DNA of 64,000 bases from the NCBI RefSeq assembly GCF_021560175.1, contig NZ_CP091110.1, positions 2,222,001-2,286,000 on the forward strand, in the 5' to 3' direction. The position numbers were made by a program, and so were the translations under genes. This document shows positions 7,833-47,625 of the stretch, piece by piece. The notes beneath the pieces are model-generated. The model saw nothing but the letters and a program-made list of their open reading frames with translations, ran no database searches and had not been told where the DNA came from. The DNA comes from Neobacillus drentensis (GTDB taxonomy: Bacteria > Bacillota > Bacilli > Bacillales > Cytobacillaceae). Each line of letters opens with the position of its first letter. Position 1 is the stretch's first letter.

Positions 7833-8196
7833 ATAATCCCCCGAAGGAGAAAGCAGCCAGGAGCTACGGCAGATAAGAGGGGTTCATAACCCCCGAAGGA
7901 GAAAGCAGCCAAGAGCTAGAGCAGATAAGAACGGTTCATAACCCCCGAAGGAGAAAGCAGCCAGGAGCTACGGCAGATAAGAGGGGTTCATAACCCCTGA
8001 AGGAGAAAGCAACCAGGAGCTACGGCAGATAAGAGAGGTTCATAACCCCTGAAGGAGAAAGCAACCAGGAGCTACGGCAGATAAGAGGGGTTCATAACCC
8101 CTGAAGGAGAAAGCAGCCAAGAGCTACAGCAGATAAGAACGATTCATAACCCCCTAATGAGAAAAGAATCAGAATCTATAACAGATTAGAGGCATG
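7833..8196. repeat. intergenic tandem array, 52-bp period (array 1)
   Basis: Six near-identical units and a decayed seventh, with unit landmarks at 7843, 7895, 7947, 7999, 8051, 8103 and 8155, exactly 52 bp apart. Each unit reads ATAACCCCYGAAGGAGAAAG and continues through CAGCCAGGAGCTACGGCAG to AGAGGGGTTC. The junction of neighbouring units makes the inverted repeat GGGGTT-CAT-AACCCC. There are no spacers of variable sequence, so it is not a CRISPR array. It lies between the convergent universal stress protein and glutaminase genes. Two other arrays with the same period are at 24997-25380 and 47180-47625. Confidence 0.93.
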
Positions 8197-8219
8197 GATA
8201 AACATACCATGCCTTTTTC
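8191..8219 (+). terminator. terminator directly after array 1
   Basis: Stem GGCATGG/CCATGCC with a 9-nt loop, then TTTTT, oriented on the plus strand. The nearest plus-strand gene already ends at a terminator at 7697-7730. This one would therefore end either read-through or an RNA transcribed across the repeats. Confidence 0.75.
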
Positions 8220-8244
8220 TTGCAAATGGTTTTAGGAAAAAAAC

Positions 8245-9183
8245 CTAAAACATACTCAACCGATAATTTCTTGATAAAAGTTCCAAAAGTTTAATTCCCG
8301 CCACACTATTACCTTTTTCATCCAGCGCAGGACCAAAAATTCCGATTCCAAATTTACCTGGAACCGCGCCCATAATCCCGCCCGATACCCCACTTTTCGC
8401 CGGAATCCCGATTTTGATGGCAAATTCTCCAGATGCATTATACATACCGCATGTAACCATAAAGGTTTTGCAAATTCGGGCTACATCTTCAGGCATAATC
8501 CTTTTCCCATTAAGAGGATCCATTCCATCCATTGCAAAAATCATCCCGATGCGACCTAGATCCAAACAGTTCATTTCAATAGCACACTGTTTTGTATATA
8601 AATCCAATAATGCGTCGACATCCTCTGTGATGATATGATGCTGCTTAAGAAAATAACATAATGCCCGATTTAAATCAGCTGTTTCGAATTCGGATTGAGC
8701 TACTTGCTCACAATATCCAATGGAAGAGTCATCGGCCAATTCCCGAATAAAGCTTAATAAGCGATGAAACCGATCCGCTATAGAATCCCCTTTGATCATA
8801 TGCGTCACCACAAGTGCTCCTGCATTGATCATGGGGTTTAACGGTTTAGCAGGAGCCATTGTTTCCAATTTGGCAATTGAATTAAACGGGTCTCCTGTTG
8901 GTTCCATTCCCACCCGTTCAAATACATATTGAAATCCTCTTTCCATTAAAACGAGGGCTAAACTTATCACCTTTGAGATACTTTGCAGCGTAATCTTTTT
9001 ATCAATATCACCGGCCGAGATACATTTTCCATCCGGATAATGAATCGCAATGGACAAATCATCCCGATTTGCTTTCCCTAGCTCCGGTATATAGTCTGCA
9101 ACCTTGCCATCTTTTGTATAACGTTTTGCTTCTTCGACTAATAGCTTTAATTCGCTACTTTTTTGACATGGCATTTTCATCAC
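8245..9183 (-). CDS. glsA: glutaminase A
   Basis: Serine-dependent glutaminase (beta-lactamase-like fold) that hydrolyses L-glutamine to glutamate and ammonia in the cytoplasm. About 310 residues, the usual length. The catalytic S-x-x-K motif is SISK (residues 68-71, in [13 protein letters not shown]). Other family blocks present are [29 protein letters not shown] and [14 protein letters not shown]. The start is ambiguous between GTG 9183 and in-frame ATGs at 9180 and 9174. A perfect 10-bp palindrome GTGATATCAC at 9202-9211 lies just upstream and could be an operator. It is convergent with array 1. Confidence 0.93.
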
Positions 9184-9582
9184 CCATAGTAGTATAGGCC
9201 TGTGATATCACCCTCATTCATCAGCTATAATGGATCTTGTATAAAAATCGATTGGGAGTATGTGATTATGATGAATAACTGCTAATAATAGACAAATCCA
9301 TGTCAATTAACACATGTATGAACCATTGCCAAACATTCAGATAATCATAAATAATTTTACAAAAAATTTAGAAATTAGTGTTTCGAAGCTTTTTCCTTGA
9401 AAAAAGTACTCAATTACTCTATTATATTTCTTTGTTAATTAATTTTTTATAGTGTATATATTGTTTAATAAAAAAAGGCTCGTGGGAATATCAATTTTTA
9501 TAAAAAGTTGCTTTTTATAATTGTTATTAAAAATCGATCCACCTAAATAATCCATACCGGCCAATCGAAAGGGGAATTAGAG
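9184..9582. other. 399-bp AT-rich intergenic region
   Basis: The region between the divergent glutaminase and DUF1641 genes. No ORF is supported. It holds the GTGATATCAC palindrome near glsA, a promoter-like pair for the DUF1641-ndh operon (9432-9460) and a small hairpin TATAAAAAG-TTG-CTTTTTATA near 9499-9519. I looked for a Rex box, as known for B. subtilis ndh, and found no convincing one. Confidence 0.6.
9432..9460 (+). promoter_or_regulatory. putative sigma-A promoter of the DUF1641-ndh operon
   Basis: TTGTTA at 9432-9437 and TATATA at 9455-9460, 17-bp spacer, leaving a leader of about 115 nt. Confidence 0.5.
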
Positions 9583-9999
9583 ATGTTAGAAGTTATGGAA
9601 AAATCAAAGGAATTCAAAGCAGAACAACTGGATGTCCTTGACCAATTGTTAAAGCCAGAGGTTCAGGAGTCCTTGACTACTTTAGTGGAGCAGCTTCCAA
9701 AACTGACCGAACTTGTGAATATTTTAACAAAATCGTATGACTTTGCTCAGTCAGTTGCTACGGACGAAGTATTAAAAAACGATACAGTCGGTGCCATTAC
9801 AGAGATTGTTGAACCTATTAAAGATACAGTGAAAAGCGTTGCTGCAACAGTGATCGAAGCAAAAGATCGTGCAGAGGATAGTAATGAAGTGATTGGTTTA
9901 TTCGGACTTTTGAAAATGATTAAAGATCCTCAAGCTCAAAAGCTTTTCCGTTTCGTTAACGCATACCTTGAAGTTTCCGGAGAACGTTCAGCAAAATAA
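9583..9999 (+). CDS. yjlC: DUF1641 domain protein, YjlC-like
   Basis: A 138-residue soluble alpha-helical protein (EVQESLTTLVEQLPKLTELVNIL... IGLFGLLKMIKDPQAQKLFRFVNAYLE) of the DUF1641 family. It has no membrane segment, and AAAGGGG precedes the ATG. The downstream gene, 36 bp away, is a type II NADH dehydrogenase, reproducing the B. subtilis yjlC-ndh (yjlD) operon. The family also pairs with other oxidoreductases such as formate dehydrogenase-like proteins, so it is probably an accessory factor or regulator of its oxidoreductase partner. Its biochemical function is unknown. Confidence 0.85.
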   Translation: MLEVMEKSKEFKAEQLDVLDQLLKPEVQESLTTLVEQLPKLTELVNILTKSYDFAQSVATDEVLKNDTVGAITEIVEPIKDTVKSVAATVIEAKDRAEDSNEVIGLFGLLKMIKDPQAQKLFRFVNAYLEVSGERSAK

Positions 10000-10035
10000 T
10001 TATTACAATACATCCATAGAGACGGGGGAGAGACC

Positions 10036-11214
10036 ATGTCAAAAAAAGTTGTCATCTTAGGTGCCGGTTATGGCGGACTATTAGCTGCAATGAATATTCG
10101 TAAATATTTAAATAAAGATCAAGCACAAGTAACTGTGATTAATCAGTACCCTACACACCAAATTATCACAGAGCTTCACCGTTTGGCTGCAGGAAGTGTG
10201 GCAGAACAAGCTGTTGCGATGCCTTTAGCGAAGCTATTCAAAGGAAAAGATATTGATCTTAAAATCGCAAAGGTTGAATCTTTCTCTGCAGATCAGAAAG
10301 AAGTAAAACTATCAGATGGATCTTCTTTATCCTATGATGCGTTAGTCGTAGCATTGGGAAGCAAAACTGCTTACTTCGGTATTCCAGGGTTAGAAGAAAA
10401 CAGCATGGTGTTAAAATCAGCAGACGATGCCAATAAAATCTATCAACATATCGAAGAACGAATTGCTGAATATGCCAAAACTAAAAATGAAGCAGATGCA
10501 ACGATCCTTATTGGCGGCGGCGGTTTAACCGGCGTTGAGTTGGTAGGAGAAATTGCGGATATGATGCCTAAACTTGCGAGAAGCTATGGCGTAAATCCTA
10601 AAGAAGTTAAGCTGATGCTAGTTGAAGCAGGTCCTAGGATCTTACCAGTGTTACCAGCAGCTTTAATCGAACGTGCAACTGCAAGTCTAGAAGCTCGTGG
10701 TGTTCAGTTCTTAACAGGTCTTCCTGTAACAAACGTGGACGGAAATGTCATTGATTTAAAAGATGGACAAAAGATTACCGCTAATACTTTTGTTTGGACT
10801 GGCGGCGTACAAGGTAATCCACTAGTCGGTCAATCAGGCCTTGATGTGGATCGTGGACGCGCAACTGTAAATGAATATCTTCAATCTACTTCCCATAAAG
10901 ACGTATTTGTTGTCGGTGACAGTGCGGTTGTTTTTGGAGAAGATGGACGCCCATTACCTCCTACTGCCCAAATAGCTTGGCAAATGGGAGAGCAAACAGG
11001 CTACAATGTATTTGCTTTCTTGGAAAATAAATCATTTAAAGAGTTTACTCAAGTTAACTCTGGAACACTAGCAAGCTTGGGACGTAAAGATGCAGTTGCT
11101 TCCATTGGTGCTAACTCCATCCCACTTAAAGGACTTCCAGCTTCGTTAATGAAAGAAGCTAGTAATGTTCGATATTTATCACATATTAAAGCATTATATA
11201 GTTTAGCTTATTAA
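10036..11214 (+). CDS. ndh: type II NADH dehydrogenase (NADH:menaquinone oxidoreductase)
   Basis: A 392-residue flavoprotein that passes electrons from NADH to menaquinone at the membrane surface without proton pumping. The FAD-binding motif VILGAGYGGLLAAMN is at the N-terminus and the NADH-binding motif ILIGGGGLTGVELVGEIA is near residue 155. VFVVGDSAVVF is the second FAD motif, and the end (VRYLSHIKALYSLAY) is the amphipathic membrane-associating tail. The length agrees with B. subtilis YjlD/Ndh, and the DUF1641 gene upstream reproduces that operon. The ribosome site is GGGGGAGAGACC. Confidence 0.92.
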   Translation: MSKKVVILGAGYGGLLAAMNIRKYLNKDQAQVTVINQYPTHQIITELHRLAAGSVAEQAVAMPLAKLFKGKDIDLKIAKVESFSADQKEVKLSDGSSLSYDALVVALGSKTAYFGIPGLEENSMVLKSADDANKIYQHIEERIAEYAKTKNEADATILIGGGGLTGVELVGEIADMMPKLARSYGVNPKEVKLMLVEAGPRILPVLPAALIERATASLEARGVQFLTGLPVTNVDGNVIDLKDGQKITANTFVWTGGVQGNPLVGQSGLDVDRGRATVNEYLQSTSHKDVFVVGDSAVVFGEDGRPLPPTAQIAWQMGEQTGYNVFAFLENKSFKEFTQVNSGTLASLGRKDAVASIGANSIPLKGLPASLMKEASNVRYLSHIKALYSLAY

Positions 11215-11302
11215 TTCTATTGGTTTTAACGTTTTGTTCGGTCGGACATTATTTCTATCTTTCCATAATATTCTCTTTAGGGAGATTAGGCTTATTTATA
11301 GT

Positions 11303-11341
11303 AAAACCACGGCGTTCCATTAAATGCTGTGGTTTTATTAT
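11303..11341 (+). terminator. terminator of the DUF1641-ndh operon
   Basis: Eleven-pair stem AAAACCACGGC/GCTGTGGTTTT (one wobble), followed by ATTATTATTT. Confidence 0.75.
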
Positions 11342-11365
11342 TATTTAAAAAATAATATAAACATA

Positions 11366-11394
11366 TTGTCACATACCTACAATCGTGTTACTAT
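11366..11394 (+). promoter_or_regulatory. sigma-A promoter of the PyrR-type leader
   Basis: TTGTCA at 11366-11371 and TACTAT at 11389-11394, 17-bp spacer. Transcription would begin near 11401, just ahead of the PyrR-type stem-loop. Confidence 0.75.
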
Positions 11395-11409
11395 TAGATG
11401 AAATTAATT

Positions 11410-11513
11410 CCTTTAACTTGGTCCAGAGAGGCCAAAAAGGCAAAAGTAAACTTTATATATGTATTTATGTATATAATGCCCTTTTGTCCATTGGATAAAA
11501 GGGCTTTTATTTT
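11410..11513 (+). promoter_or_regulatory. PyrR-type transcription attenuator (leader RNA)
   Basis: Bases 11410-11440 form the anti-antiterminator stem-loop known from Bacillus pyr leaders. They hold the outer pair CCTTT/AAAGG, the inner pair TTGG/CCAA and the PyrR-recognised core TCCAGAGAGG. Bases 11478-11513 form a terminator (GCCCTTTTGTCC / GGATAAAAGGGC, then TTTTATTTT). The stretch GGCAAAAG at about 11439-11446 can instead pair with CTTTTGTCC in the terminator's 5' arm, giving the antiterminator. In the known mechanism, UMP-bound PyrR stabilises the first stem so that the terminator forms. The regulated gene is the MFS transporter starting 54 bp later. Confidence 0.87.
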
Positions 11514-11566
11514 GCCGACTATCTTTTAATCAAAGTCCCGTGAGGCTTGAAAGGAGAACGACAAAA

Positions 11567-12790
11567 ATGGATTATCGTAAAAAAACAGTAGTTGCATCAG
11601 TAGCAGGTTTAACACTTGAGGGTATGGATATTATGTTCATCTCCTTTGCCATGTCAATGATTATTGCCCAGTTTCATATTGATATGGTATCGGGAGGTCT
11701 TATTTCCTCCATTACAAACATAGGAATGCTAGCTGGAGGAATGATTTTCGGTATTTTGGCAGATAAATTCGGGAGAGTTCGAGTATTTACCTATACGATT
11801 CTACTATTTGCGATTGGAACAGCGTTAACAGGGCTGGCTCAAAATATTGAACAGGTTTACGCCTTTCGATTTATAGCGGGTTTAGGTGCAGGTGGAGAAT
11901 ATGGGATTGGTATGGCGCTTGTCGCGGAAGCATGGCCAAAGAATAAACAGGGGCGCGCTTCTTCCTACGTTAGTATCGGTGCTCAATACGGTGTGATCCT
12001 TGCAGCACTTCTAAGTGCCATGATTCTTCCTGCCTGGGGATGGAGAGGATTGTTTTTCGTCGGCTTGGTTCCAGTTATCTTCGCTTTTATCGTAAGAAGG
12101 AAATTAGACGAATCGCCTGTTTGGGTAGAGGCACAAAAGCAAAAACAACTTCTGCCTCGGCAAGGGAAATTAAAGCAATTGTTTGCTGATCCGAGAACTT
12201 CAGTCACAACGATTGCGTTAGCCATTATGGCTACTGTCCAAATTGCAGGTTATAATGGTTTGATGATTTGGCTGCCATCGATGCTTCAGCAATCTCAAGG
12301 ATTATCCGTATCTAATTCGGCTCTTTGGACGATTAGCACGGCTGTAGGGATGATTGCCGGAATGTTAACATTTGGCCAATTTATCGATCGATTCGGAATG
12401 AAGCGCTCATATGGAATGTTCCTTGCTGCTTCTGCTTTAGCGGTGTTCTTATATTCCTATGCATCAGGAAGTGCAGGCCTTTTAATCGGCGGGGCGCTTG
12501 TCGGATTTTTCTCAAATGGAATGTTTGCCGGATATGGTGCCTTAATCAGTAATTATTATCCAGTTGAAATTCGCAGCACAGCAACCAATACCATCTTTAA
12601 CTTTGGCAGAGCATTGGGCGGATTATCTCCCATTTTAGTTGGTTACATCCTGCAGCATACAAATGTAAAGGTCGCAATGGGCTATCTTGCCGTACTTTAC
12701 TGCATCTCCTTTATCGCTATGATTAGTTTGAAAAAAGGAAAAGGTTCTAAAAAACAGCTCCCTGTATTTTCTAAAGTGGAGTCCTTTTAA
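11567..12790 (+). CDS. MFS transporter (aromatic acid/H+ symporter-like) under PyrR-type control
   Basis: A 407-residue integral membrane transporter with about 12 hydrophobic segments. The loop 2-3 MFS motif is GILADKFGRVRV. LEGMDIMFISF at the start and GAGGEYGIGMALVAE in TM4 resemble the AAHS/sugar-porter-like group that carries organic acids with protons. ATG 11567 is chosen because AAAGGAGAACG precedes it; an in-frame GTG at 11540 lacks such a site. It stands alone between a PyrR-type attenuator and a terminator, so expression should rise when UMP is low. A pyrimidine precursor such as orotate, or another pyrimidine, is the inferred cargo. The fold is certain, the cargo is inference. Confidence 0.88.
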   Translation: MDYRKKTVVASVAGLTLEGMDIMFISFAMSMIIAQFHIDMVSGGLISSITNIGMLAGGMIFGILADKFGRVRVFTYTILLFAIGTALTGLAQNIEQVYAFRFIAGLGAGGEYGIGMALVAEAWPKNKQGRASSYVSIGAQYGVILAALLSAMILPAWGWRGLFFVGLVPVIFAFIVRRKLDESPVWVEAQKQKQLLPRQGKLKQLFADPRTSVTTIALAIMATVQIAGYNGLMIWLPSMLQQSQGLSVSNSALWTISTAVGMIAGMLTFGQFIDRFGMKRSYGMFLAASALAVFLYSYASGSAGLLIGGALVGFFSNGMFAGYGALISNYYPVEIRSTATNTIFNFGRALGGLSPILVGYILQHTNVKVAMGYLAVLYCISFIAMISLKKGKGSKKQLPVFSKVESF

Positions 12791-12791
12791 G

Positions 12792-12828
12792 AAAAAACCC
12801 AAGTGAATGTACTTCACTTGGGTTTTTT
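12792..12828. terminator. bidirectional-looking terminator after the MFS gene
   Basis: Perfect 15-bp stem AAAAAACCCAAGTGA/TCACTTGGGTTTTTT with a 7-nt loop. The T run lies within the 3' arm. Confidence 0.88.
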
Positions 12829-12928
12829 GTCTAGTTGGGAGATAATAATATAAGAGGGCATTTTAACTTATTTATATATTAAAAATGCGTATAAAGTTGA
12901 ATTAGGTATGTAGAAAGAAGTGAAAAGA

Positions 12929-14851
12929 ATGAAAGAAATCCCCTCGATCTCTTCATCGATTATTAAACAGGCTTTATCGGTTAATAAAAAGCCGTTCCCA
13001 TGGTTAAAGGCATTTTCGGCAGGGGTAGCTGCGTCTTTGCCTATTTTGATTGGCTTATTATTAGGCAATTTTAAATATGGGTTGATCGCTGGAATGGGTG
13101 GTTTCACCTATCTTTACGTATTTAATATTCCATATGCTCAGAGGGCTAAAAAAATATTTTTTGTCTTAGTTGCTTTGTCTGTACTAACTGCGTTAGGGAC
13201 ACTTGTTGCTCCATATCCAATGGCAATTGCCATTTTAATGGGGCTGATTGGAGCCGCAGCCATATTCTCTTTTGGAGCATTAAGAATTACAGGTCCTTCG
13301 GCCATCTTTTTTGTTCTGGTTTTTTCAATGACAACAGGTATGCCTGTTCAGCCAGAACTAGCCCTTGTTCGAGCAGGACTTGTTTTCCTTGGCGGGAGTC
13401 TGTCGTGGATCATTGCGATGCTTGGTTATTTTTTTGACCCGCATGGTCCAGAAAAGGGTGTAATGAAAAGGACCTTACTCGAGCTAGCAACATTTCTTGA
13501 TTCTGTCGGAACTGAACGTTTTAACGAGTCGAGACATCGTGTCATGTCAATATTGAATGAGGCCGAAGGAACACTTGCTTCGGGTTATATTTCCTGGAAT
13601 CAAACAGACTTTTTTAAAAGATTATATGTATTAAATAATTCGGCTCGTGCGTTATTCACGTACATACTTGAAAATTATTCCGAACATCCTGTCAAGTTAC
13701 CATCTGAATTAGGGCATTCGCTTCGGAAAATGACTTTATCGTTAGACACTAAAAGGAAGGGTCATTATTCCGAACAAAAAATTTTACAGCCGGATGTAAT
13801 GGATGATCAAATTGCTTACTTGTTTAAACTCATCTATGATGCAGATGCAATCTTTAACGAACCCGCTTCTAAAATTAATAAAGAAGTTGAATTTGCGAAG
13901 TCCTCCACAAAGACTGTGCTTGGGGGGGCATTTGACAAAAATTCGATTATTTTTATTTCAGCTTTAAGATTTGGTATTGTCACAACGATAGCGGCCATTA
14001 TCGCTTTTCAATTTGGACTTGTGCGGTCTTACTGGGTACCGTTATCCTGTGTAGCTGTTATGTCAGGATTCTCGATTGTGGCCACCTTTCATCGTGCTAT
14101 CCAAAGAGGAATTGGTACATTGCTAGGAATCTTAATCGCAAGTATCATACTTTCCTTTCATCCGAGTGGTTATTTAATTGCTATGCTTGTTTTATTATTA
14201 ACGTTTATAACAGAGCTGTTTATCGTGAAAAATTATGGATTAGCCGCACTGTTTTTTACACCGAACGCTTTACTTATGGCTGAAAGCACCAGTTTGGGGA
14301 ATTTTAACTTTACCTATTTTGCTTCTGCAAGAATGATGGATGTTTTAATTGGCAGTATCATTGGTCTCTTGGGAGTATGGTTAGTAGGGAGGAGGTCGGC
14401 CTCTAGTCGTATTCCTCACCTGATATCGAAAACGATTCGGAGTCAAGCACAATTGTTGATTATTCTATTCTCTGACCAAGGAAAAGGGTTAAAGTCGAGA
14501 GAAAACAGAGGGTTAAGCAAGATGAAAACGAATATCTATAATTTAAAAACCCTATATAATACAGCTTTAGGTGAAGTTCCTGCTGATCGAAAAGCGTTGG
14601 ATTATTACTGGACTGTGGTATTCTCCATCGAACATTTAGGCTATTTATTGGAAGATTGTGCTAAAACAGGTACCCGACGGCCCCTTTCGGATGAGATACT
14701 AGCCCAATTGCTTTATGTTTGTGAAACAATGGCCATCGCGGCAGATCTGAAAAGGTCGCCAACTATGAGAAGAGTTCCTGAAATAGAACCATTTCCAGGC
14801 ATCCAAAATGAGATTGTAAATTTACAAAAAGGACTTCAAACAAGCGACTAG
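12929..14851 (+). CDS. FUSC family membrane protein (aromatic acid exporter-like)
   Basis: A 640-residue membrane protein with the two-block architecture of FUSC/YccS/AaeB proteins. A first hydrophobic block of about six segments (residues about 20-165) precedes a soluble helical region of about 175 residues. A second block (residues about 340-485) contains the FUSC signature region YWVPLSCVAVMSGF... AIQRGIGTLLGILIA, and a soluble C-terminal tail follows. The family exports hydroxylated aromatic acids or related compounds. ATG 12929 is taken because AGAAAGAAG sits 8 nt upstream; GTG 12920 is the alternative. It precedes a MarR-regulated efflux set, but a hairpin separates them. Confidence 0.85.
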   Translation: MKEIPSISSSIIKQALSVNKKPFPWLKAFSAGVAASLPILIGLLLGNFKYGLIAGMGGFTYLYVFNIPYAQRAKKIFFVLVALSVLTALGTLVAPYPMAIAILMGLIGAAAIFSFGALRITGPSAIFFVLVFSMTTGMPVQPELALVRAGLVFLGGSLSWIIAMLGYFFDPHGPEKGVMKRTLLELATFLDSVGTERFNESRHRVMSILNEAEGTLASGYISWNQTDFFKRLYVLNNSARALFTYILENYSEHPVKLPSELGHSLRKMTLSLDTKRKGHYSEQKILQPDVMDDQIAYLFKLIYDADAIFNEPASKINKEVEFAKSSTKTVLGGAFDKNSIIFISALRFGIVTTIAAIIAFQFGLVRSYWVPLSCVAVMSGFSIVATFHRAIQRGIGTLLGILIASIILSFHPSGYLIAMLVLLLTFITELFIVKNYGLAALFFTPNALLMAESTSLGNFNFTYFASARMMDVLIGSIIGLLGVWLVGRRSASSRIPHLISKTIRSQAQLLIILFSDQGKGLKSRENRGLSKMKTNIYNLKTLYNTALGEVPADRKALDYYWTVVFSIEHLGYLLEDCAKTGTRRPLSDEILAQLLYVCETMAIAADLKRSPTMRRVPEIEPFPGIQNEIVNLQKGLQTSD

Positions 14852-14856
14852 TATGC

Positions 14857-14890
14857 AAAAAAGGCCCCTCATTGATGACGGGCCTTTGAT
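14857..14890 (+). terminator. terminator-like hairpin after the FUSC gene
   Basis: Stem AAAGGCCC/GGGCCTTT with a 12-nt loop, followed by GATTCTGTTCCTT, a weak T tract. Confidence 0.6.
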
Positions 14891-14922
14891 TCTGTTCCTT
14901 ACATTTATCTAGGTGCTTGCAT

Positions 14923-14951
14923 TTGCTTGTCCAGAACCCAAGTATTATACT
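14923..14951 (+). promoter_or_regulatory. sigma-A promoter of the MarR gene with overlapping palindrome
   Basis: TTGCTT at 14923-14928 and TATACT at 14946-14951 with a 17-bp spacer. The palindrome AGTAT-T-ATACT (14941-14951) covers the -10 box. It shares the 9-bp core GTATAATAC, in the opposite orientation, with the palindrome over the promoter of the downstream MFS gene. This is the expected pattern for autoregulation by the MarR protein. Confidence 0.7.
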
Positions 14952-15007
14952 AAAATCAGTTTGTTTACCATAAGAAGAACCGTTTGCTTTATAAGGGGGA
15001 AGGACTT

Positions 15008-15433: not shown

Positions 15434-15544
15434 TCCTATTTTTAATATTTCCCAAAAATTAAGAATAACTGTATATGGAGAAGGATTGTGACCTGTTGTC
15501 ACGATCTTTTTTGTTTTCACTATTGTATAAAATAAAGTTTATCA

Positions 15545-15576
15545 TTGATTTTTTTGTTATAAGTTGTATAATACAA
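15545..15576 (+). promoter_or_regulatory. sigma-A promoter of the efflux genes with MarR-type operator
   Basis: TTGATT at 15545-15550 and TATAAT at 15567-15572 with a 16-bp spacer. The palindrome TTGTAT-A-ATACAA (15564-15576) covers the -10 box and matches the core found over the MarR promoter. Confidence 0.75.
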
Positions 15577-15672
15577 GTTGCCGTATGCAATATAGATATG
15601 GTGATTATGTTGACAAGCATTATGAAACAAAACTATTACGAAATTTTTCAGATATTGAAAGGAGGAAAATTG

Positions 15673-18071: not shown

Positions 18072-18073
18072 TA

Positions 18074-24013: not shown

Positions 24014-24991
24014 ATGAAATTTGAAAAAGTACGTTGGGGAATTATTGGATGCGGTGATGTAACGGAAGTGAAAAGTGGACCAGCATTCCAAAAAATCAGT
24101 CATTCAGAGTTGGTCGCCGTGATGAGGAGAACTAGTAAACTTGCAAAAGACTATGCGGAAAGACACCATGTTCCAAAATGGTATGATGATGCTGATGCGC
24201 TTATTAACGATCCAGATGTGGATGCTGTCTATGTCGCGACACCACCAAGTTCACATAAAGAATATGCAATAAAAGCTGCAAAAGCCGGCAAACCGGTTTA
24301 TGTAGAAAAGCCAATGGCACTTAATTTTGCTGAGTGTAATGAAATGATTGCTGCTTGCAAGATGGCTGGTGTTCCTTTATATGTAGCTTACTACCGCAGA
24401 GCGCTGCCTCGTTTTGTAAAAATAAAAGAGTTGTTGGAAACGAAAGCAATTGGAGATGTTCGTTTTGTATCGACAACACAATATCAAACAGCATCTGAAA
24501 ATGTAAAGGATTCACAGGCTCTTCCATGGAGGGTTCAGCCTGAATTGTCAGGAGGAGGGCTATTTTTTGATTTGGCAAGTCATACACTCGATTTATTAGA
24601 TTTCTTACTGGGGCCAATTAAGGAGGCACAAGGTTTTACTTCCAATCAAGCAGGTTATTATCATGCCGAAGATATCGTCACAGGGACGTATCGATTTGAA
24701 TCCGGAGTCCACGGTGTTGGAAATTGGTGTTTTTCTGCGTTTGAAGATGTAGATGTGAATGAAATCGTCGGCAGTGAAGGAAAAATTACCTTTTCCACTT
24801 TTGGAAACGAGCCCATTGTGTTAACGACAGCTAGTGGAACAGAGCAATGGAGTTTTGAACCGCCGATGCATGTCCATCAATACCTTGTAGAAACCATTGT
24901 GGCTGAATTATCAGGAGAGAGCAAAGAGTGCCCAAGTACGGGAGTGTCCGGTGCAAGAACCAATTGGGTGATGGGTGAGATTGCTTACTAG
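24014..24991 (+). CDS. Gfo/Idh/MocA family oxidoreductase
   Basis: A 325-residue dehydrogenase with WGIIGCGDVTEVKSGPAF, EKPMALNFAECNEM and GGGLFFDLASHTLDLLDFLLG. The GDVTEVKSGPAFQK start is characteristic of one conserved subgroup. AGAGAAGGGGAATA precedes ATG. It lies 42 bp after the first dehydrogenase and is presumably co-transcribed and IclR-controlled. The stop codon is followed within 6 bp by a 52-bp repeat array whose last unit supplies the terminator hairpin. Substrate unknown. Confidence 0.88.
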   Translation: MKFEKVRWGIIGCGDVTEVKSGPAFQKISHSELVAVMRRTSKLAKDYAERHHVPKWYDDADALINDPDVDAVYVATPPSSHKEYAIKAAKAGKPVYVEKPMALNFAECNEMIAACKMAGVPLYVAYYRRALPRFVKIKELLETKAIGDVRFVSTTQYQTASENVKDSQALPWRVQPELSGGGLFFDLASHTLDLLDFLLGPIKEAQGFTSNQAGYYHAEDIVTGTYRFESGVHGVGNWCFSAFEDVDVNEIVGSEGKITFSTFGNEPIVLTTASGTEQWSFEPPMHVHQYLVETIVAELSGESKECPSTGVSGARTNWVMGEIAY

Positions 24992-24996: not shown

Positions 24997-25380
24997 TGCT
25001 CTATTGATGACTCTGATGAGTTATTTTTGAGGTAGAAGATCGACAATAAGAGCTCTTGACGACGCTGCTGAATTATTTTGAGGAATACGGTAGTCAATAG
25101 GCACTCTTGACGACCCAGATGAATTATTTTTGAGGAGGACGGTCGCCAATAGGTGGTATTGACGACCCAGATGGATTATTTTTGAGGAGGACGGTCGCCA
25201 ATAGGTGGTATTGACGACCCAGATGGATTATTTTTGAGGAGGACGGTCGCCAATAGGAGCTCTTGACGACCCAGATGGATTATTTTTGAGAAAGACGGTC
25301 GCCAATAGGTACTCTTGACGACCCAGATGAATTATTTTTGAGCCAGAGAGTCGTCAATAAGCTCTATTGACGACTCTAAT
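24997..25380. repeat. intergenic tandem array, 52-bp period (array 2)
   Basis: About seven units with landmarks (GACGACCC or variant) at 25006, 25058, 25109, 25161, 25213, 25265, 25317 and 25369. Steps are 52 bp apart from one of 51. The consensus runs GACGACCCAGATGGATTATT, then TTTGAGGAGGACGGTCGCC, then AATAGGTGGTATT. Each unit junction forms the inverted repeat GGTCGCCAATA/TATTGACGACC with one mismatch, which on the minus strand is a G-U pair, so the stem would be 11 pairs. It fills the gap between convergent genes. Its sequence differs from arrays 1 and 3 but the period is the same. Confidence 0.92.
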
Positions 25381-25389: not shown

Positions 25390-25809
25390 TCATTTAAGGT
25401 TAAAAAACAAAACAAAGTCACCAGGGCCAATGAGCGCTACTCCAATAACAGCAGCAATTAATACAAGATTATATTCAAATCCATTGTTGGTCATCCAGTA
25501 GCCATTTTTGCCATGAACAGTAAAAATAGCATCAATCATCACAATTACAATCATGATTGCACCAAGCCAAGTAAGAAAACCAGCAGCAAAAAGTAATCCG
25601 CCTATCAACTCAAATAGGCCTGCAAGAGTCGCCCAAACCTTGGCTCCCTTTTCAAGGCCGAGTGTTTCAAGCCAGTTTCCCATACCCGCTATACCAGGGC
25701 CGCCAAACCAGCCAAATAACTTTTGTGCGCCATGCCCAAAAAAAGTTAGCCCGATCACGAGCCGAATAAGTAACAGCCCGATATTAACCAGTGCCATATT
25801 TTCAGTCAT
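25390..25809 (-). CDS. DoxX family membrane protein
   Basis: A 139-residue protein with four membrane segments (about residues 9-27, 57-75, 80-98 and 112-132). It has the DoxX signature GLTFFGHGAQKLFGWFGGPGIAGMGNWLETLGL. DoxX-type proteins are related to a thiosulfate:quinone oxidoreductase subunit, but most Bacillus members (YfiD/YodP-like context) have no proven reaction and some are linked to redox stress. AGAAGG lies upstream of ATG. It is a single gene, and no terminator is visible. Confidence 0.88.
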   Translation of the reverse strand: MTENMALVNIGLLLIRLVIGLTFFGHGAQKLFGWFGGPGIAGMGNWLETLGLEKGAKVWATLAGLFELIGGLLFAAGFLTWLGAIMIVIVMIDAIFTVHGKNGYWMTNNGFEYNLVLIAAVIGVALIGPGDFVLFFNLK

Positions 25810-33666: not shown

Positions 33667-33667
33667 T

Positions 33668-35709: not shown

Positions 35710-35747
35710 ATTATTTGAAAGAGAAAAGGACGCATTCAAATAGCCTG

Positions 35748-35843
35748 TTTTCCACTTCCCTACGCTGGTATAACCCAGATCAGGTTCATAGAGTCCCGAA
35801 GTAGTACTTCAATCTCAGCCCTTTAAAAAGGCACCTCTAGCGG
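35748..35843 (-). promoter_or_regulatory. TPP riboswitch (THI element)
   Basis: On the minus strand the conserved blocks appear in order: AGAGGTGCC, GGGCTGAGA, GGGACTCTATGAACCTGATC, TGGGTTATACCAGCGTAGGGA. These make up the pyrimidine-binding CUGAGA loop and the pyrophosphate-binding ACCUGAUCUGG helix. It controls the tenI-thiO-thiS-thiG-thiF operon through the downstream terminator. Confidence 0.96.
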
Positions 35844-35886
35844 ATATATTTTCCATATAAATTTGTAATCATTACCTGCATGTATA

Positions 35887-39963: not shown

Positions 39964-39992
39964 CCAAAGATCTTTAAAGGAGGTTTTGGCAA

Positions 39993-41369: not shown

Positions 41370-41401
41370 GCTTACGGATAAAGAATAAAAGGAGGTAGTT
41401 T

Positions 41402-42688
41402 ATGGCAGATTTAAGGATTAATTTAGCTGGAATAACTTCACCAAATCCATTTTGGCTTGCCTCAGCACCCCCAACAAACTCAGGATATCAAGTCCAACGT
41501 GCATTTGAGGCCGGCTGGGGCGGTGCCGTTTGGAAGACATTGGGAGAGCCTATTATCAATACGTCTTCCCGATTTGCAGCCGTCAGCTTTAACGGACAAA
41601 AAGTAGCCGGCTTTAACAATATTGAACTGATTACGGATCGCCCGCTAGAGGTGAACCTGAAAGAAATAGCCGAAACGAAGAAGCGTTTCCCCAATCACGC
41701 CATCATCGCCTCGTTAATGGTCGAGCCGAAGCAAGAAAAATGGCATGAGATCGTAAAAAAAGTAGAAGCAGTTGGTGTCGATGGTCTTGAATTAAACTTT
41801 GGGTGCCCACATGGAATGGCAGAACGAGGGATGGGATCGGCATCAGGCCAAGTACCAGCCCTAGTTGAACAACAAACCTATTGGGTAAAAGAAGTAGCGA
41901 AGACTCCGGTCATTGTAAAACTGACACCGAATATAACCGATATTACGGCAACGGCTGAGGCTGCGGTAAAGGGTGGTGCGGATGCCGTTAGTATGATTAA
42001 TACGATTAATAGTTTAGCAGGGGTAGATCTTGATACCTGGAACACGATTCCACATGTGGCCGGGAAAGGGGCACATGGAGGTTACTGCGGGCCGGCCGTT
42101 AAACCGATTGCGTTACATATGGTAGGGGAGTGTGCCCGAAATCCTAGGATTAATATCCCAATCTCTGGAATCGGTGGAATCTCAAACTGGCAAAACGCTG
42201 TCGAATTCATGTTGATGGGTGCAAGCGGGGTCCAAGTTTGTACAGCAGCTATGCATCATGGCTTTAGAATCGTTGAGGATATGATTGAAGGATTAAATAA
42301 TTATTTAGATGATAAGGGCATCGCCTCTGTCATGGATTTAATTGGTAAAGCAGTACCGAAATATTCTGACTGGGGCAATCTTGATTTGAACTATAGTGTG
42401 GTTGCTAAAATCAATAATGATGTTTGCATTCATTGCAATAAATGCCATATTGCCTGTGAGGACACCTCCCATCAATGCATCGATATGCTGAAGGATGAAC
42501 ATGGAAACAGCATCCTCAAAGTAAGGGAAGAAGACTGTGTCGGCTGTAATTTATGTTCCATCGTCTGCCCGGTAGAAGGTGCAATTGATATGATTGAAGT
42601 ACCAAGTGGACTGCCGCCAATGACATGGAATGAACGCCAGGCAGCACTCGGGGCGCTTTCGTTTAAAACGGATATTGTTAAAAAATAA
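41402..42688 (+). CDS. preA: NAD-dependent dihydropyrimidine dehydrogenase subunit PreA
   Basis: A 428-residue catalytic subunit. The FMN-binding dihydroorotate-dehydrogenase-like barrel starts LRINLAGITSPNPFWLASAPPTNSGYQVQRAF. It contains LNFGCPHGMAERGMGSASGQ with the active-site loop and ISGIGGISNWQNAVEFMLMGASGVQVCTA for FMN phosphate. The C-terminal ferredoxin domain holds two 4Fe-4S motifs (CIHCNKCHIAC and CVGCNLCSIVCPVEG). AAAGGAGGTAG lies upstream. Its partner is PreT. It catalyses the first step of reductive uracil and thymine degradation. Confidence 0.95.
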   Translation: MADLRINLAGITSPNPFWLASAPPTNSGYQVQRAFEAGWGGAVWKTLGEPIINTSSRFAAVSFNGQKVAGFNNIELITDRPLEVNLKEIAETKKRFPNHAIIASLMVEPKQEKWHEIVKKVEAVGVDGLELNFGCPHGMAERGMGSASGQVPALVEQQTYWVKEVAKTPVIVKLTPNITDITATAEAAVKGGADAVSMINTINSLAGVDLDTWNTIPHVAGKGAHGGYCGPAVKPIALHMVGECARNPRINIPISGIGGISNWQNAVEFMLMGASGVQVCTAAMHHGFRIVEDMIEGLNNYLDDKGIASVMDLIGKAVPKYSDWGNLDLNYSVVAKINNDVCIHCNKCHIACEDTSHQCIDMLKDEHGNSILKVREEDCVGCNLCSIVCPVEGAIDMIEVPSGLPPMTWNERQAALGALSFKTDIVKK

Positions 42689-42727
42689 TAGACTCAATTT
42701 CTACTAAAACAGGGAGGGTCATTCATT

Positions 42728-44146
42728 ATGAAAAAAGTGATTAAAAATGGAACCGTCGTGACGGCAGCGGATACCTATCGAGCCGATGTCTGTATTGAAA
42801 ATGGAGTCGTTACGCAAATTGGCGAGAATTTATCCACTGTTGGTGCAGAGGTTATTGATGCAAAAGGCTGTTACCTGTTTCCTGGCGGAATTGATCCCCA
42901 TACCCATCTCGATATGCCGTTTGGCGGAACAGTTACAAAAGATGATTTTGAAACCGGTACGATGGCAGCCGCTTTTGGTGGAACAACCACCATCATTGAT
43001 TTCTGCTTAACGACCAAAGGGGCAACATTGAAAAGTGCCGTCGATGCCTGGCATGCCAAATCAAAAGATAAGGCCGTCATTGATTATGGATTTCACCTGC
43101 AAATTGTTGAAATGAACAATGAAAAGCTAGCCGAGCTGCCTAAAATGATTGAAGAAGAGGGCATCACCTCCCTTAAGGTATTTATGGCCTATAAAAATCA
43201 GTTTCAAGCTGATGATGAAACCCTTTTTAAAACATTGATTGCTGCAAGGGACCTTGGCGCCCTCGTCATGGTTCATGCGGAAAATGGCGATGTGATTGAT
43301 TATTTAGTGAAAAAAGCCTTAGAAGAAGGGAATACGGATCCCATTTATCATGCGCTGACAAGGCCGCCGGAAGTAGAAGCGGAAGCAACTGGCCGAGCGG
43401 CAACCTTAACCAAATTAGCAAATTCTCAACTATATGTTGTCCATGTTTCTTGTGCCGAAGCTGCCCGGAAGATTGCCGAAGCGAGGAGCAAAGGCGCCGA
43501 TATCTGGGGAGAAACGTGCCCGCAGTATTTAGTATTGGACCAATCTTACTTAGAAAAGCCAAATTTTGAAGGAGCAAAATACGTTTGGTCGCCTCCGTTA
43601 CGTGAAAAATGGAATCAAGCTGAGTTATGGAATGCTTTAAAAACAGGACAGCTGCAAACCGTGGGCTCTGATCAATGCTCCTTTGACTTTGTCGGTCAAA
43701 AGGACCTTGGGAAAGGTGATTTTTCAAAAATTCCAAACGGTGGACCAATTATTGAGGACCGCGTAAGTATTTTGTTCTCCGAAGGGGTTAAGAAAGGAAG
43801 AATTTCCATTAACCAGTTTGTTGAAATTACCTCAACAAAGGCGGCAAAATTATTTGGTTTGTATCCAAAAAAAGGAACGATTGCCATAGGAGCTGATGCT
43901 GATATTGTCATTTTTGATCCAAATGTGGAACGGGTCATTTCAGCTGAAACGCACCATATGGCTGTTGATTATAATGCATTCGAAGGGTTCAAGGTTACTG
44001 GTGAGCCTGTATCTGTCCTTTCACGTGGTGATTTTGTGATCCGTGATAAACAGTTTGTTGGTAAACCAGGTGCAGGACAGTTTTTAAAACGAGAGAAATA
44101 CGGTTCAAATCAAAAAGCAGAATCGGAAAAAACGGTAACATTGTAA
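42728..44146 (+). CDS. hydA: dihydropyrimidinase (D-hydantoinase)
   Basis: A 472-residue amidohydrolase that opens dihydrouracil to N-carbamoyl-beta-alanine. The binuclear metal site is GGIDPHTHLDMPFGG, the carboxylated bridging Lys is in TSLKVFMAYKNQF, and HAENGD and VVHVSCAEA supply further His ligands. The last metal ligand Asp is in GSDQCSFDF. CPQYL and the C-terminal KGTIAIGADADIVIFDP are typical. AGGGAGGGTC lies upstream. A hairpin (AAAGGGTTAAG/CTTAACCCTTT, about 44163-44194) without a T run follows and may lower downstream expression or protect the mRNA. Confidence 0.95.
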   Translation: MKKVIKNGTVVTAADTYRADVCIENGVVTQIGENLSTVGAEVIDAKGCYLFPGGIDPHTHLDMPFGGTVTKDDFETGTMAAAFGGTTTIIDFCLTTKGATLKSAVDAWHAKSKDKAVIDYGFHLQIVEMNNEKLAELPKMIEEEGITSLKVFMAYKNQFQADDETLFKTLIAARDLGALVMVHAENGDVIDYLVKKALEEGNTDPIYHALTRPPEVEAEATGRAATLTKLANSQLYVVHVSCAEAARKIAEARSKGADIWGETCPQYLVLDQSYLEKPNFEGAKYVWSPPLREKWNQAELWNALKTGQLQTVGSDQCSFDFVGQKDLGKGDFSKIPNGGPIIEDRVSILFSEGVKKGRISINQFVEITSTKAAKLFGLYPKKGTIAIGADADIVIFDPNVERVISAETHHMAVDYNAFEGFKVTGEPVSVLSRGDFVIRDKQFVGKPGAGQFLKREKYGSNQKAESEKTVTL

Positions 44147-44227
44147 GAGATTGTATAGGGAAAAAGGGTTAAGGATTAAGATTCTTAACCCTTTGCCGAG
44201 TGGAAGCAAAATAAAGGGAGGAGAAAA

Positions 44228-44473
44228 ATGTCTGACTATCAACAGTATTTAAAAGAACGGGATCTTGTGGATTATTACCTTCAAAAGGGGTACCTAATTA
44301 AAAATAGTACCGAAAATTTAAGCGGAGCCTTTGTTCTTTTTGAGAAAAAAAACAGCAATGGTGAAATGGAAAGGGAAACGATCCAACTATTAACTCCTGC
44401 GGCTCGGAAGTATTTTTCCGTGAGAGTGATTCAACAACAAAACGCTCAACCAGAAAGGGATGTAGGAGCATGA
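44228..44473 (+). CDS. 81-residue small protein of the pyrimidine operon, function unknown
   Basis: Encodes an 81-residue soluble protein beginning [20 protein letters not shown] and ending [10 protein letters not shown]. It has helix-strand-helix character with no membrane segment, cysteines or known motif. AAAGGGAGGAG lies upstream, and the gene overlaps the ald start by ATGA (4 bp), so it is translated and coupled to ald. Its position between dihydropyrimidinase and alanine dehydrogenase suggests an accessory role, for example a small partner subunit. I do not recognise the family. Confidence 0.72.
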
Positions 44474-45603
44474 TTATCGGCATACCCAAAGAGATTAAAA
44501 ACAATGAGAATCGAGTGGGAATAACACCTGGAGGAGTATTTGAATTTATTGCCAATGGGAATGAAATTTGGATTGAAAACCATGCGGGAATGGGCAGTGG
44601 TTTCCCGAACGAGGAATACATGGCTGCCGGTGCCAAAATCGTTCAGACTGCGAAAGAAGCATGGTCAGCCGATATGGTTATGAAAGTAAAAGAGCCGCTG
44701 CCAGAAGAATTTCAATATTTTCGGGAAGGATTAATCTTATTTACTTATCTCCATCTGGCCCCGGAATATGATCTGACGAAAGCTCTTATGGAAAAGAAAG
44801 TAATCGCGATTGCTTACGAAACCATTCAACTCGAAAATGGATTACTCCCATTGTTGATGCCGATGAGTGAAGTAGCGGGCAGAATGTCGATCCAAATCGG
44901 TGCCCAATTTTTAGAAAAGCCGAAAGGTGGTAAAGGAGTTCTACTTGGAGGTGTTCCTGGTGTTGCTCCGGCTGAGGTTGTCATTATCGGCGGCGGGATA
45001 GTCGGAACGAATGCAGCTAAAATGGCGCTTGGCCTTGGTGCTAAAGTAACCATCCTGGATATTAATGCAAACCGTTTAAGAGAAATAGATGACTTATTTC
45101 AAGGACGGTTAACGACACTTATGTCCAATCCTTATAATCTTACTGAAGTGATAAAAAAAGCAGATCTAGTGGTTGGTGCGGTTCTTATTCCTGGGGCACG
45201 GGCACCGAGACTTGTCACGGAGGACATGATAAAAACGATGCAGCCCGGTTCTGTTGTGGTCGATGTGGCAATTGATCAAGGCGGCTCCATAGAAACAATT
45301 GATCGGATTACCACTCACACAAACCCAACCTATGAAAAGCATGGCGTAGTTCATTACGCGGTTGCCAACATGCCAGGTGCTGTCCCTCGTACAGCGACCA
45401 TCGCCTTAACAAATGTAACCGTTCCATACGGTATTGAGATTGCCAACAAAGGTTTAAATCTTGCTGCACGTTCCAAACCTGCTTTATTGAAAGGAATCAA
45501 TGTGATCGGTGGAAAAGTTACCTTTAAAGCAGTGGCAGATGCCCATGGATTTAGTTATACCAAGATCGAACAAATGATTAATAATGATAGTCTATCAGTT
45601 TAG
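44470..45603 (+). CDS. ald: alanine dehydrogenase
   Basis: A 377-residue NAD-dependent enzyme converting L-alanine to pyruvate and ammonia. It begins [22 protein letters not shown], the substrate Lys is in [12 protein letters not shown], the NAD motif is [28 protein letters not shown], and [14 protein letters not shown] is near the end. The length is standard. It overlaps the 81-residue gene by 4 bp. In this operon it would recycle the alanine made by the beta-alanine:pyruvate aminotransferase, keeping pyruvate available and releasing nitrogen. Confidence 0.95.
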
Positions 45604-45660
45604 TAAGGACCATCGGGGAATCGAACATACAACCTTATATATCAAAAGGAGACCGTTTGA

Positions 45661-47127
45661 ATGACAATTTTTACACAAGGAATCAAGCATTTAAAAAACT
45701 ATATTGGGGGAGAATGGGTTGACTCAAAATCTGATAAAACGGAACTTGTTGTCAATCCAGCAACAGGGCAAGCAATTGCTGAGATACCGCTATCTACCAA
45801 AGAAGATGTTGATCATGCCGTTGCTGTTGCGAAGGTGGCCTTTAAAATATGGTCACAGACACCTGTTCCTAAGCGGGCCCGAATCCTATTTAAGTATCAG
45901 CAGCTGCTTGTGGAAAATTCAGATGAATTGGCGAGGCTGGTCACTATAGAAAATGGGAAGGCTCTATCGGAAGCAGCGGGTGAGGTACAGCGTGGAATTG
46001 AGTGTGTTGAATTTGCTGCTGGTGCCCCTTCTTTCATGATGGGTAAACAGCTGCCCGATATTGCCACCAATCTTGAATCCGGGATGTATCGCTATCCTCT
46101 TGGAGTGGTAGGTGGGATTACACCATTTAATTTTCCGATGATGGTTCCGTGCTGGATGTTCCCGATCGCGATTGCTTGCGGAAATACATTCGTATTAAAG
46201 CCATCCGAAAGGACACCAGTTCTTGCGGCACGTCTTGCAGAATTAATGACAGAAGCCGGATTACCAAGTGGAGTCCTAAATATTGTCAATGGTGCGCATG
46301 ATGTAGTCAATGGGCTGCTCGAACATAAAGACGTAAAAGCAATCTCATTTGTCGGTTCACAGCCTGTTGCCGAATATGTCTATAAAAAAGGAACAGCCAA
46401 CTTGAAGCGGGTCCAAGCACTTTCTGGTGCCAAAAATCATTCCATCGTCTTAAAAGATGCAAACTTAGAGCTTGCGGCAAGAGAAATTACGAACGCTGCC
46501 TTTGGCTCCGCAGGCGAACGCTGTATGGCAGCGGCCGTAGTTGCTGTCGAAGAAAGTATTGCTGATGAATTAGTCCAGCGTTTATCAATTTTGGCTGATG
46601 ACATCAAAATAGGGAATGGACTTACCGAGGGGGTTTTCCTTGGACCAGTCATTCGTGAAGGAAATAAGACGCGTACGATCGAGTATATCGAGTCAGGTAT
46701 TACTCAAGGTGCTACACTGGTGCGGGATGGACGAAAGGATGAAGCGGTTAACGGTCCCGGCTATTTCGTTGGACCAACGATTTTCGATCATGTTACGAAA
46801 GAAATGAAAATCTGGCAGGATGAACTTTTTGCACCGGTTCTCTCGATTGTTAGAGTCAAAGATTTGGCAGAAGCGATTGATGTGGCAAATGCCTCACCAT
46901 TTGCGAACGGTGCCTGCTTATTTACTGATCGTGCTTCCGCCGTGCGTCAGTTCCGGGAAACGATTGATGCAGGAATGCTCGGAGTCAATGTTGGGGTGCC
47001 AGCTCCAATGGCTTTCTTCCCATTTTCCGGGTACAAGGATTCGTTCTATGGGGATTTACATGCAAATGGCACAGACGGATTTGACTTTTATACAAGAAAG
47101 AAAATGGTGACAGCTCGATATCAATAG
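45661..47127 (+). CDS. mmsA: CoA-acylating (methyl)malonate-semialdehyde dehydrogenase
   Basis: A 488-residue aldehyde dehydrogenase of the MmsA/IolA type. It turns malonate semialdehyde to acetyl-CoA plus CO2, or the methyl form to propionyl-CoA, with NAD and CoA. Support: [30 protein letters not shown], the loop [14 protein letters not shown] and the catalytic Cys in [21 protein letters not shown] lies upstream. B. subtilis IolA works on inositol; the neighbours here fix the substrate as the product of beta-alanine transamination. The 52-bp array 3 follows it. Confidence 0.93.
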
Positions 47128-47179
47128 GATGAGAGACAGTGTTGCTTTTTCTTTAAGGATCTTCAACTTGATGTTGATT

Positions 47180-47625
47180 GCATTCAAGGTCAGTGAGAGA
47201 GCGGTTCATTGCCCGAAGAAAGGAAGAAGAGCCCTTCAAGGTCAATGAGAGAGCGGTTCATTGCCCAAAAAAAGGTAGTAGAGCCATTCTGGGTCAATGA
47301 AAGAGCGGTTCATTGCCCGAAGAAAGGAAAAAGAGCCCTTCAAGGTCAATAAAAGAGTGGTTCATTGCCCGAAAAAAGGAAATAGAGCCATTCTGGGTGA
47401 ATGAGAGAGAGGTTCATTGCCCGAAAAAAGGTAGTAGAGCCATTCTGGGTAAATGAAAGAGTGGTTCATTACCCGAAGAAAGGAAAAGGAGCCCTTCCAA
47501 GGTCAATGAGAGAGGGGTTCATTGCCCGAAGAAAGGAAAAGGAGCCCTTCAAGGTAAATGAAAGGGCGGTTCATAGAACGATATGAAAAATGGCTACCCC
47601 AGGGTTAATGAAAGACTGGTACACC
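47180..47625. repeat. intergenic tandem array, 52-bp period (array 3)
   Basis: About eight units, with GGTTCAT landmarks at 47203, 47255, 47307, 47359, 47411, 47463, 47516 and 47568: 52 bp apart except one 53-bp step. The unit contains AGAGCGGTTCATTGCCCGAA and a stretch AGAGCCCTTCAAGGTCAATG. Most units carry the inverted repeat CAATGA-N9-TCATTG. Two sub-types alternate, CCT-TCA-AGG and CCA-TTC-TGG, keeping the short pairing. The core resembles array 1. The array lies inside the presumed pyrimidine operon, between two co-directional genes. Short frames through it are repeat translations, not genes. Confidence 0.92.

Follow-up and report, generated by a model that had tools for sequence, protein, structure and literature searches.

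In the window analysed here, a 64,000-nucleotide stretch of the Neobacillus drentensis chromosome (positions 2,222,001-2,286,000 of one 6,255,529-bp contig), three intergenic gaps contain tandem arrays with a period of 52 bp, and these arrays belong to a class that is distributed over the whole chromosome. Our preferred reading, to which we give somewhat under an even chance, is that the arrays are DNA-level, replication-polar chromosome elements whose register is constrained. The direct basis for this reading is a peaked step length, a dyad that is less variable than the rest of the unit, fewer insertions and deletions (indels) than in intergenic DNA, a purine polarity, a placement at gene 3' ends and, in the two families that could be oriented, an orientation that follows replication.

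Using Tandem Repeats Finder, a period of 52 was obtained for arrays 1, 2 and 3 (7833-8164, 25004-25374 and 47183-47574), which confirms the description given by a first-pass annotation of this DNA, made from the sequence alone, of real arrays of 6-8 units with a 52-bp period; that all three fill intergenic gaps was likewise confirmed. The steps between anchors are six times 52 in array 1, then 52, 51 and five times 52 in array 2, and five times 52 followed by 53, 52 and 50 in array 3, i.e. exactly 52 bp in 18 of 21 steps, the remainder being 51, 53 and 50. The annotation had counted only two 1-bp exceptions; both are present, together with an extra 2-bp deviation leading into the last unit of array 3, which is decayed. 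One inverted repeat per unit, as it had also proposed, is visible in all three arrays, and an automatic search on the unit consensus, with bulges disallowed, was clear for array 2 alone (0 of 60 shuffles as good), the dyads of array 3 (p 0.08) and array 1 (p 0.10) not reaching significance. The claim that the three units are different holds for array 2, which has no further match in its own genome at E <= 0.001 (an own-genome array at 645,223 has a stem in common with it), and fails for arrays 1 and 3, which come from two families (1 and 3) that intergrade; part of the shared 52-bp period is therefore common ancestry, arrays 1 and 3 not being independent. The spacing of 17-22 kb between the arrays carries no weight, since arrays of the class are scattered over the whole chromosome.

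Relatives of array 1 occur at no fewer than 9 other places of the genome and relatives of array 3 at at least 4 others, and two further families occupy at least 11 and at least 3 places, including the place of the query itself. Among 60 Neobacillus genomes, that of N. drentensis included, family 1 is present in at least 12, family 3 in at least 22, family 4 in at least 11 and family 5 in at least 2; these counts are lower bounds because the best 4 to 12 candidates were scored per genome, and some of the matches near E 1e-4 may be due to chance. The sequence of array 3 was not found beyond the genus, as the only match among 150 genomes of the order, with at most 4 candidates scored in each, was its own genome. 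Arrays of 51-52 bp with other sequences are found in Oceanobacillus, Ammoniphilus, Lederbergia and a Bacillus sp., and Paenibacillus has one at 101-102 bp. When 97 overlapping loci around family matches were considered, 87 contained an array, with a step near the match of 51-53 or about double.

The distribution of periods was obtained from 40 evenly spaced 20-kb stretches of the N. drentensis genome (800 kb) and 80 related loci, picked via the gene adjoining array 3, for a total of 2.46 Mb, every lag from 12 to 240 being treated alike. The 39 non-coding rows were reduced by hand to 31 arrays by removing one tRNA cluster (its identity confirmed by Rfam search), one 8-mer and six rows that we take to be CRISPR-like. 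Thirteen of the 31 have a period of 51-52 or its double, nine a period of about 21 or multiples of it, and nine other periods; the thirteen include L106 (101-102), a weak 103-bp row in L055 and two orthologues of array 3 (L072 and L074), and L124 is counted among the other periods. A 51-bp array in L097, spanned by a 95-codon open frame, falls outside the 39 rows. A broad spread of periods, named beforehand as the observation that would speak against selection on spacing, was thus looked for and is absent, the periods being peaked at 51-52. The first-pass annotation had also kept in reserve a dull alternative, the expansion of unrelated seeds by slippage with no length preference. The arrays are indeed rich in near-identical units, and we nevertheless set this explanation aside as scarcely credible on account of the period distribution, sharply peaked despite the equal treatment of all lags; the dyad, polarity and indel results given below tell against it as well. 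As a separate observation, a near-perfect intergenic 39-bp tandem array (L367:2963-3220) belongs to neither the 52-bp nor the 21-bp class.

Across families and genera the units follow a common plan, an imperfect dyad with an A/G-rich linker and loop, although their sequences differ. The arms of the dyad have a median length of 11 bp in consensus units and vary less (5.9%) than the loops (9.1%) and the linkers (11.8%); among arrays with more than 100 arm positions, 32 of 38 have arms less variable than their linkers. In the oriented families, purines make up 77% of the linkers and 75% of the loops. The counts of dyad variation, indels, G-U pairs and distances omit 4 of 108 arrays (the 8-mer of L131, L124, one array in L192 and the 101-102 array of L106), and those of arms and G-U pairs also omit arrays with a dyad p > 0.05, which leaves 59.

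Little in these dyads points to a structured RNA. No excess of G-U was found among the dyad mismatches of the 59 arrays (226 GT vs 290 AC), GT exceeding AC in 18 of them and AC exceeding GT in 33. Rfam gave no array match at gathering score within the window and, for five array loci, the only matches in or touching arrays were far below the cut-off (E 0.2 and 0.97); no RNA family was identified in this way. RNA folding z values on the plus and minus strands (145-148 nt) are mixed, at +0.33 and -0.71 for array 1, +0.42 and -3.32 for array 2 and -3.62 and -4.52 for array 3, so that neither strand is singled out. With these results, and with an orientation that follows replication even in convergent gaps, the processed RNA that the first-pass annotation had listed among its possibilities becomes less likely.

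We then considered the register of the arrays by comparing N. drentensis with Bacillus sp. ISL-18 (G012). Eight orthologous arrays contain 10 small indels and 295 substitutions (eight distinct arrays, gaps >20 bp and repeat rows of one array excluded), as compared with 13 indels and 116 substitutions in adjacent intergenic DNA (p 0.008, or 0.02-0.04 once poorly aligned spots are excluded) and 33 indels and 273 substitutions in longer intergenic alignments. Indels per substitution are thus about one third of the intergenic value in arrays that diverge by substitution about twice as fast (11.1% vs 5.9%). A ninth G012 array (L267) has a weak match in N. drentensis, at a place without an array. 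Indels are genuinely, if moderately, depleted in the arrays, and part of this depletion may come from exchange between units.

The orientation of the arrays was determined for families 1 and 3, taking the leading strand from the GC skew of the surrounding stretch and the strand of the array from homology. Sixty-four of 67 arrays are oriented with the leading strand, and two of the three disagreements are nearly skew-free (G029:C90, 0.005; G048:C82, 0.013). All 27 arrays of these families in convergent gaps follow the leading strand, which is an upper figure because some of the 67 oriented arrays are orthologous pairs or have been split by an insertion sequence (IS) of the IS21 type; in convergent gaps the array is closer to the leading-strand gene in 13 cases and to the opposite gene in 14, and gene direction gives no orientation preference there. 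Of four arrays classed between lagging-strand genes, G029:C90 is the one that disagrees; the other three follow replication, one of these (L194) being an IS artefact. In genome G021, 115 of 116 matches to a family-1 pattern are on one strand, and the matches listed are all located past 2.7 Mb on a chromosome of 4.83 Mb. On the N. drentensis chromosome the sign of the GC skew switches between 3.14 and 3.30 Mb; provided that the contig starts close to the origin, the window belongs to the left replichore and its plus strand is the leading one. Array 1, in a convergent gap, has its motif on the plus strand and is oriented with the leading strand. The proxy agrees with a single-terminus division of this chromosome in 39 of 40 samples, a figure that measures consistency and not independent accuracy since the terminus itself was placed from GC skew. 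A test of the leading strand by third codon positions agreed in 33 of the 40 samples and was dropped. By the GC-skew proxy, orientation in families 1 and 3 follows replication and not transcription.

A purine polarity goes together with this orientation. The purine fraction of the leading strand is 0.616 in arrays as against 0.51-0.52 in other intergenic DNA, and 96% of 80 arrays are purine-rich on that strand, these arrays coming from stretches mostly around families 1 and 3 whose skew was calculated with the array itself included. On the lagging-sense strand, YC dinucleotides reach 15.6 per 100 nt vs 8.5.

Among 95 arrays with both flanks available, 34 lie in convergent gaps, 58 in codirectional gaps and three in divergent gaps, one of the latter (L191) being an IS artefact, whereas in the genome sample the gaps of 150 bp or more are, by length, 17% convergent, 64% codirectional and 19% divergent. 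Arrays lie at a median of 22.5 bp from the closest 3' end and 106 bp from the closest 5' end; no more than about 10 bp separate the start of array 2 from a stop codon, and array 3 lies between two plus-strand genes. In G021, an IS21-type element encoding a 443-aa transposase-like protein and an IstB of 251 aa is found inside the 52-bp arrays of L189, L191 and L194, inserted at differing points of the unit with, by eye, apparent 7-bp target repeats, and a further IS21-type copy adjoins the array of L186. We also note a family-4 array directly downstream of a 23S-5S-tRNA gene cluster (L234; 183-185 kb of the N. drentensis genome).

The placement at 3' ends and the rarity in divergent gaps would suit an element acting on transcription, C/T-rich on transcripts that oppose replication, which could serve as a Rho-dependent or multi-hairpin terminator of head-on or antisense transcription, with some of the dyads acting as terminators themselves. 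Rho prefers C-rich, G-poor RNA, and the YC content of the lagging-sense strand also points in this direction. Terminator scans returned four sites in the region of array 1 (shuffle mean 1.3), of which three weak ones lie inside the array and all on the minus strand, a single site in array 2 (shuffle mean 0.4), which is its terminator-like last dyad, and two minus-strand sites in array 3 (shuffle mean 1.2); the hairpin directly 3' of array 1 is not among these results, the scan admitting loops of up to 8 only. In none of arrays 1-3 did the scans find a stem with a T run in each unit. A role in transcription gives no reason for a step near 52, the T tail is missing from most dyads, there is no G-U excess, and only 37 of the 58 codirectional arrays are closer to the 3' end of the upstream gene, and we regard this explanation as rather unlikely, though still a serious competitor.

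A purely mutational origin, doubtful in our estimation but the weightier competitor, would require no function at all: at the fork, dyads folded on one of the template strands would cause slippage by steps of about 52, so that arrays grow and homogenise, and 3' ends would simply be the sites where they do little harm. Several observations are in its favour, namely the replication orientation, the best identity between units, often 90-100%, and the 16 gaps >20 bp in the eight orthologous arrays, as of units gained or lost. The gap 3' of the aldehyde-dehydrogenase gene (itself 97% identical between N. drentensis and ISL-18 and 90% between N. drentensis and N. cucumis) is also to be counted here: it holds an array of the 52- or 21-bp class in 6 of the 80 loci, of family 3 in L072 and L074, of another family in N. 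niacini (L076), of a third in L097 and L101 and of the 21-bp class in Bhargavaea (L147), different genera thus having different families in the same gap, and N. cucumis retains an apparent array remnant. By itself, such a mutational ruler leaves unexplained the purine-rich linkers and arms that are twice as conserved as linkers, and recent slippage would not be expected to give arrays of the kind found in the 21-bp class, where core and spacing are kept and spacers vary.

This second intergenic class, found in N. drentensis and in related genomes (Table 1), has a conserved core of about 8-11 bp every 20.5-21 bp, separated by variable spacers, with a leading-strand purine bias that is weaker and non-uniform (0.46 to 0.67). 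A core kept at a fixed spacing fits phasing by whole turns of DNA, and the steps of the two classes correspond to two and five turns of about 10.4 bp each, a numerical fit that hints that the step is perhaps a property of the duplex. Apart from both classes, L034:8780-8990 has four near-palindromic GGAACCGGTTCC-like sites with steps of about 44-52 bp, resembling a multi-operator region.

According to the reading that we prefer, each unit of 51-52 bp would combine a dyad that is imperfect and has arms of about 9-12 bp with a linker and loop that are rich in A/G on the leading strand, whose sequence is also that of the lagging-strand template. In tandem copies, the dyads would recur every five helical turns or so and share one face of the duplex, and a single-stranded lagging template could present a hairpin each 52 bases with purine-rich stretches between. 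A factor might then read the phased dyads, by shape and register more than by exact sequence, during or behind replication, and the arrays would persist as their register matters, with their sequence turning over through unequal exchange and conversion. The phased protein-binding or chromosome-organising array suggested by the first-pass annotation is favoured in part, as regards a probable constraint on spacing (peaked period, fewer indels, less variable dyads); five helical turns as the cause, and binding by a protein, are conjectural. More tentatively still, and with somewhat less confidence, we propose that these arrays represent an undescribed class of elements found throughout the Bacillales, in which the plan (dyad, purine-rich linker, whole-turn step and direction of replication) is conserved and the sequence is free, and of which the two-turn (about 21 bp) and five-turn (about 52 bp) forms may be read at or behind the fork by a factor sensing register and polarity.

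A number of results weigh against constrained, replication-polar elements. Within arrays, compared with their own consensus, 194 indels to 2892 substitutions were counted (0.067; an earlier count gave 253 to 3352), which lies below the intergenic ratio by no more than about a factor of two (p 0.005) and is compatible with the mutational ruler; in the 16 least regular arrays the ratio, 0.125, is no lower than in intergenic DNA, and conversion between units or one-strand slippage could also suppress indels. The dyad reaches p <= 0.05 in only 60 of 108 arrays in the bulge-free test. Covariation, proposed earlier as a check on the dyads, is above shuffle level in family 3 and at shuffle level in family 4. 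In 34 distinct family-3-like consensus units, chosen and aligned by their likeness to a perfect-dyad reference, which favours pairing, Watson-Crick pairs occupy 77.5% of arm cells vs a shuffle mean of 71.5% that none of 500 shuffles raises to the observed value, and 18 double changes are seen vs a shuffle mean of 7.4, related sequences being able to exceed shuffles without any structure; family 4 has no covariation excess (255 of 500 shuffles reach the observed value) and family 3 retains conserved mismatches near the CCG end, so a perfect hairpin is not required. As to orientation, there is one clear exception, at 4,921,847 of the N. drentensis genome, and one single family-1 match on the opposite strand in G021; the test concerns two related families only, and its GC-skew proxy is partly set by gene direction and was calibrated on a terminus placed by the same skew. 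Finally, helical phasing is deduced from length alone and the binding factor is hypothetical, nor was a class with a three-turn step observed among the arrays.

Intergenic repeats of bacteria are usually explained as selfish sequences or as RNA hairpins. A class that keeps its step, dyad and direction constant with its sequence free would imply either a factor that senses register along the chromosome or an error of replication that carries its own ruler, and both possibilities lend themselves to direct testing in culturable relatives of Bacillus.

The features of the window and the loci of the 21-bp class are given in Table 1. The aldehyde-dehydrogenase gene to the left of array 3 is presumably mmsA. 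Elsewhere in the window are a TPP riboswitch (35740-35848, minus strand) and a PyrR binding site (11406-11511, plus strand).

Table 1. Arrays, associated hairpins and flanking genes in the window, and loci of the 21-bp class
Feature	Position	Strand	Description
Universal stress protein gene	7197..7673	+	PF00582; left flank of array 1
Array 1	7833..8196	+	About 7 units of 52 bp; dyad GGGGTTcatAACCCC; family 1, core AGA-NN-GGTTCATAAC
Terminator-like hairpin	8191..8218	+	GGCATGG/CCATGCC and T run, directly 3' of array 1, by eye
Glutaminase gene	8245..9183	-	PF04960; right flank of array 1, convergent
Gfo/Idh/MocA oxidoreductase gene	24014..24991	+	PF01408; left flank of array 2
Array 2	24997..25380	+	About 7-8 units; dyad GGTCGCCAATA/TATTGACGACC; convergent gap
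Last dyad of array 2	25347..25377	+	13-pair hairpin then AATTTTTATT; intrinsic-terminator-like
DoxX gene	25390..25809	-	PF07681; right flank of array 2, convergent
Aldehyde dehydrogenase gene	45661..47127	+	PF00171; left flank of array 3
Array 3	47180..47625	+	About 8-9 units, family 3; left arm approximately GGTCAATGA, right arm TTCATTGCCCG
Class-III aminotransferase gene	47705..49063	+	PF00202; right flank of array 3
21-bp class loci	L110:5234-5373, L363:5973-6098, L147:11484-11605, L147:18615-18768, L355:12451-12603
21-bp class loci	L202:3987-4164, L340:19170-19288, L049:6350-7111, L070:5040-5428
21-bp class loci	L090:9707-9965, L090:16577-16792

No description of such arrays was found in the titles and abstracts that searches of open-access papers returned, subscription journals and preprints lying outside these searches. 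The TAACTGA heptamer repeats of PMC4679880 differ from the arrays described here. CRISPR arrays also consist of regularly spaced palindromic repeats, but the linkers of our arrays are repeated and not unique, on which ground a CRISPR identity was rejected, and the CRISPR-like arrays of L140 and L144 have steps of mostly 65-67. A phage or plasmid origin gained no support when array 1 was searched against the phage set and array 3 against the plasmid set, as neither search, limited to one array per collection, returned a match. Like the arrays, intrinsic terminators place a hairpin at the 3' end of a gene, and array 2 closes with a dyad that resembles them; most units here, however, lack the T tail, are present in several to more than 20 consecutive copies and are oriented with replication and not with a single gene.

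REP/BIME elements are, like the arrays, intergenic, palindromic, located at gene 3' ends and present in many copies, those described here being interrupted by IS in one genome. An element of this kind dispersed by a RAYT (Y1 transposase) might also be suggested by the presence of Y1_Tnp matches, RAYT-like or IS200-like, in 57 of the 60 Neobacillus genomes (1 to 8 per genome). We consider it very unlikely: G018 and G020 have family-3 arrays and no Y1_Tnp match, and in none of 30 Y1_Tnp loci examined does an array of 51-52 bp lie within about 1.5 kb, although a 60-bp array is present in one of them. REP/BIME units are found in alternating orientation, which was not observed in the printed arrays or in the pattern matches at each place, where the repeats are direct; the arrays are direct tandem units of 51-52 bp that belong to several families and are oriented with replication.

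Iteron-like or operator arrays are phased on turns of DNA and resemble the present arrays by a step close to a whole number of turns and, for the 21-bp class, by a conserved core with variable spacer, but the arrays described here lie at gene 3' ends across the chromosome, and the flanking genes that could be identified in the window include no initiator or partition gene. The SRS octamer, which we take to be GAGAAGGG, was rejected as a shared component, as it occurs in 6 of 80 arrays in the forward direction and in 1 in reverse. KOPS and the SRS of SpoIIIE are strand-polar chromosome motifs, and the arrays resemble them in that their orientation follows replication and differ from them in being long and tandem.

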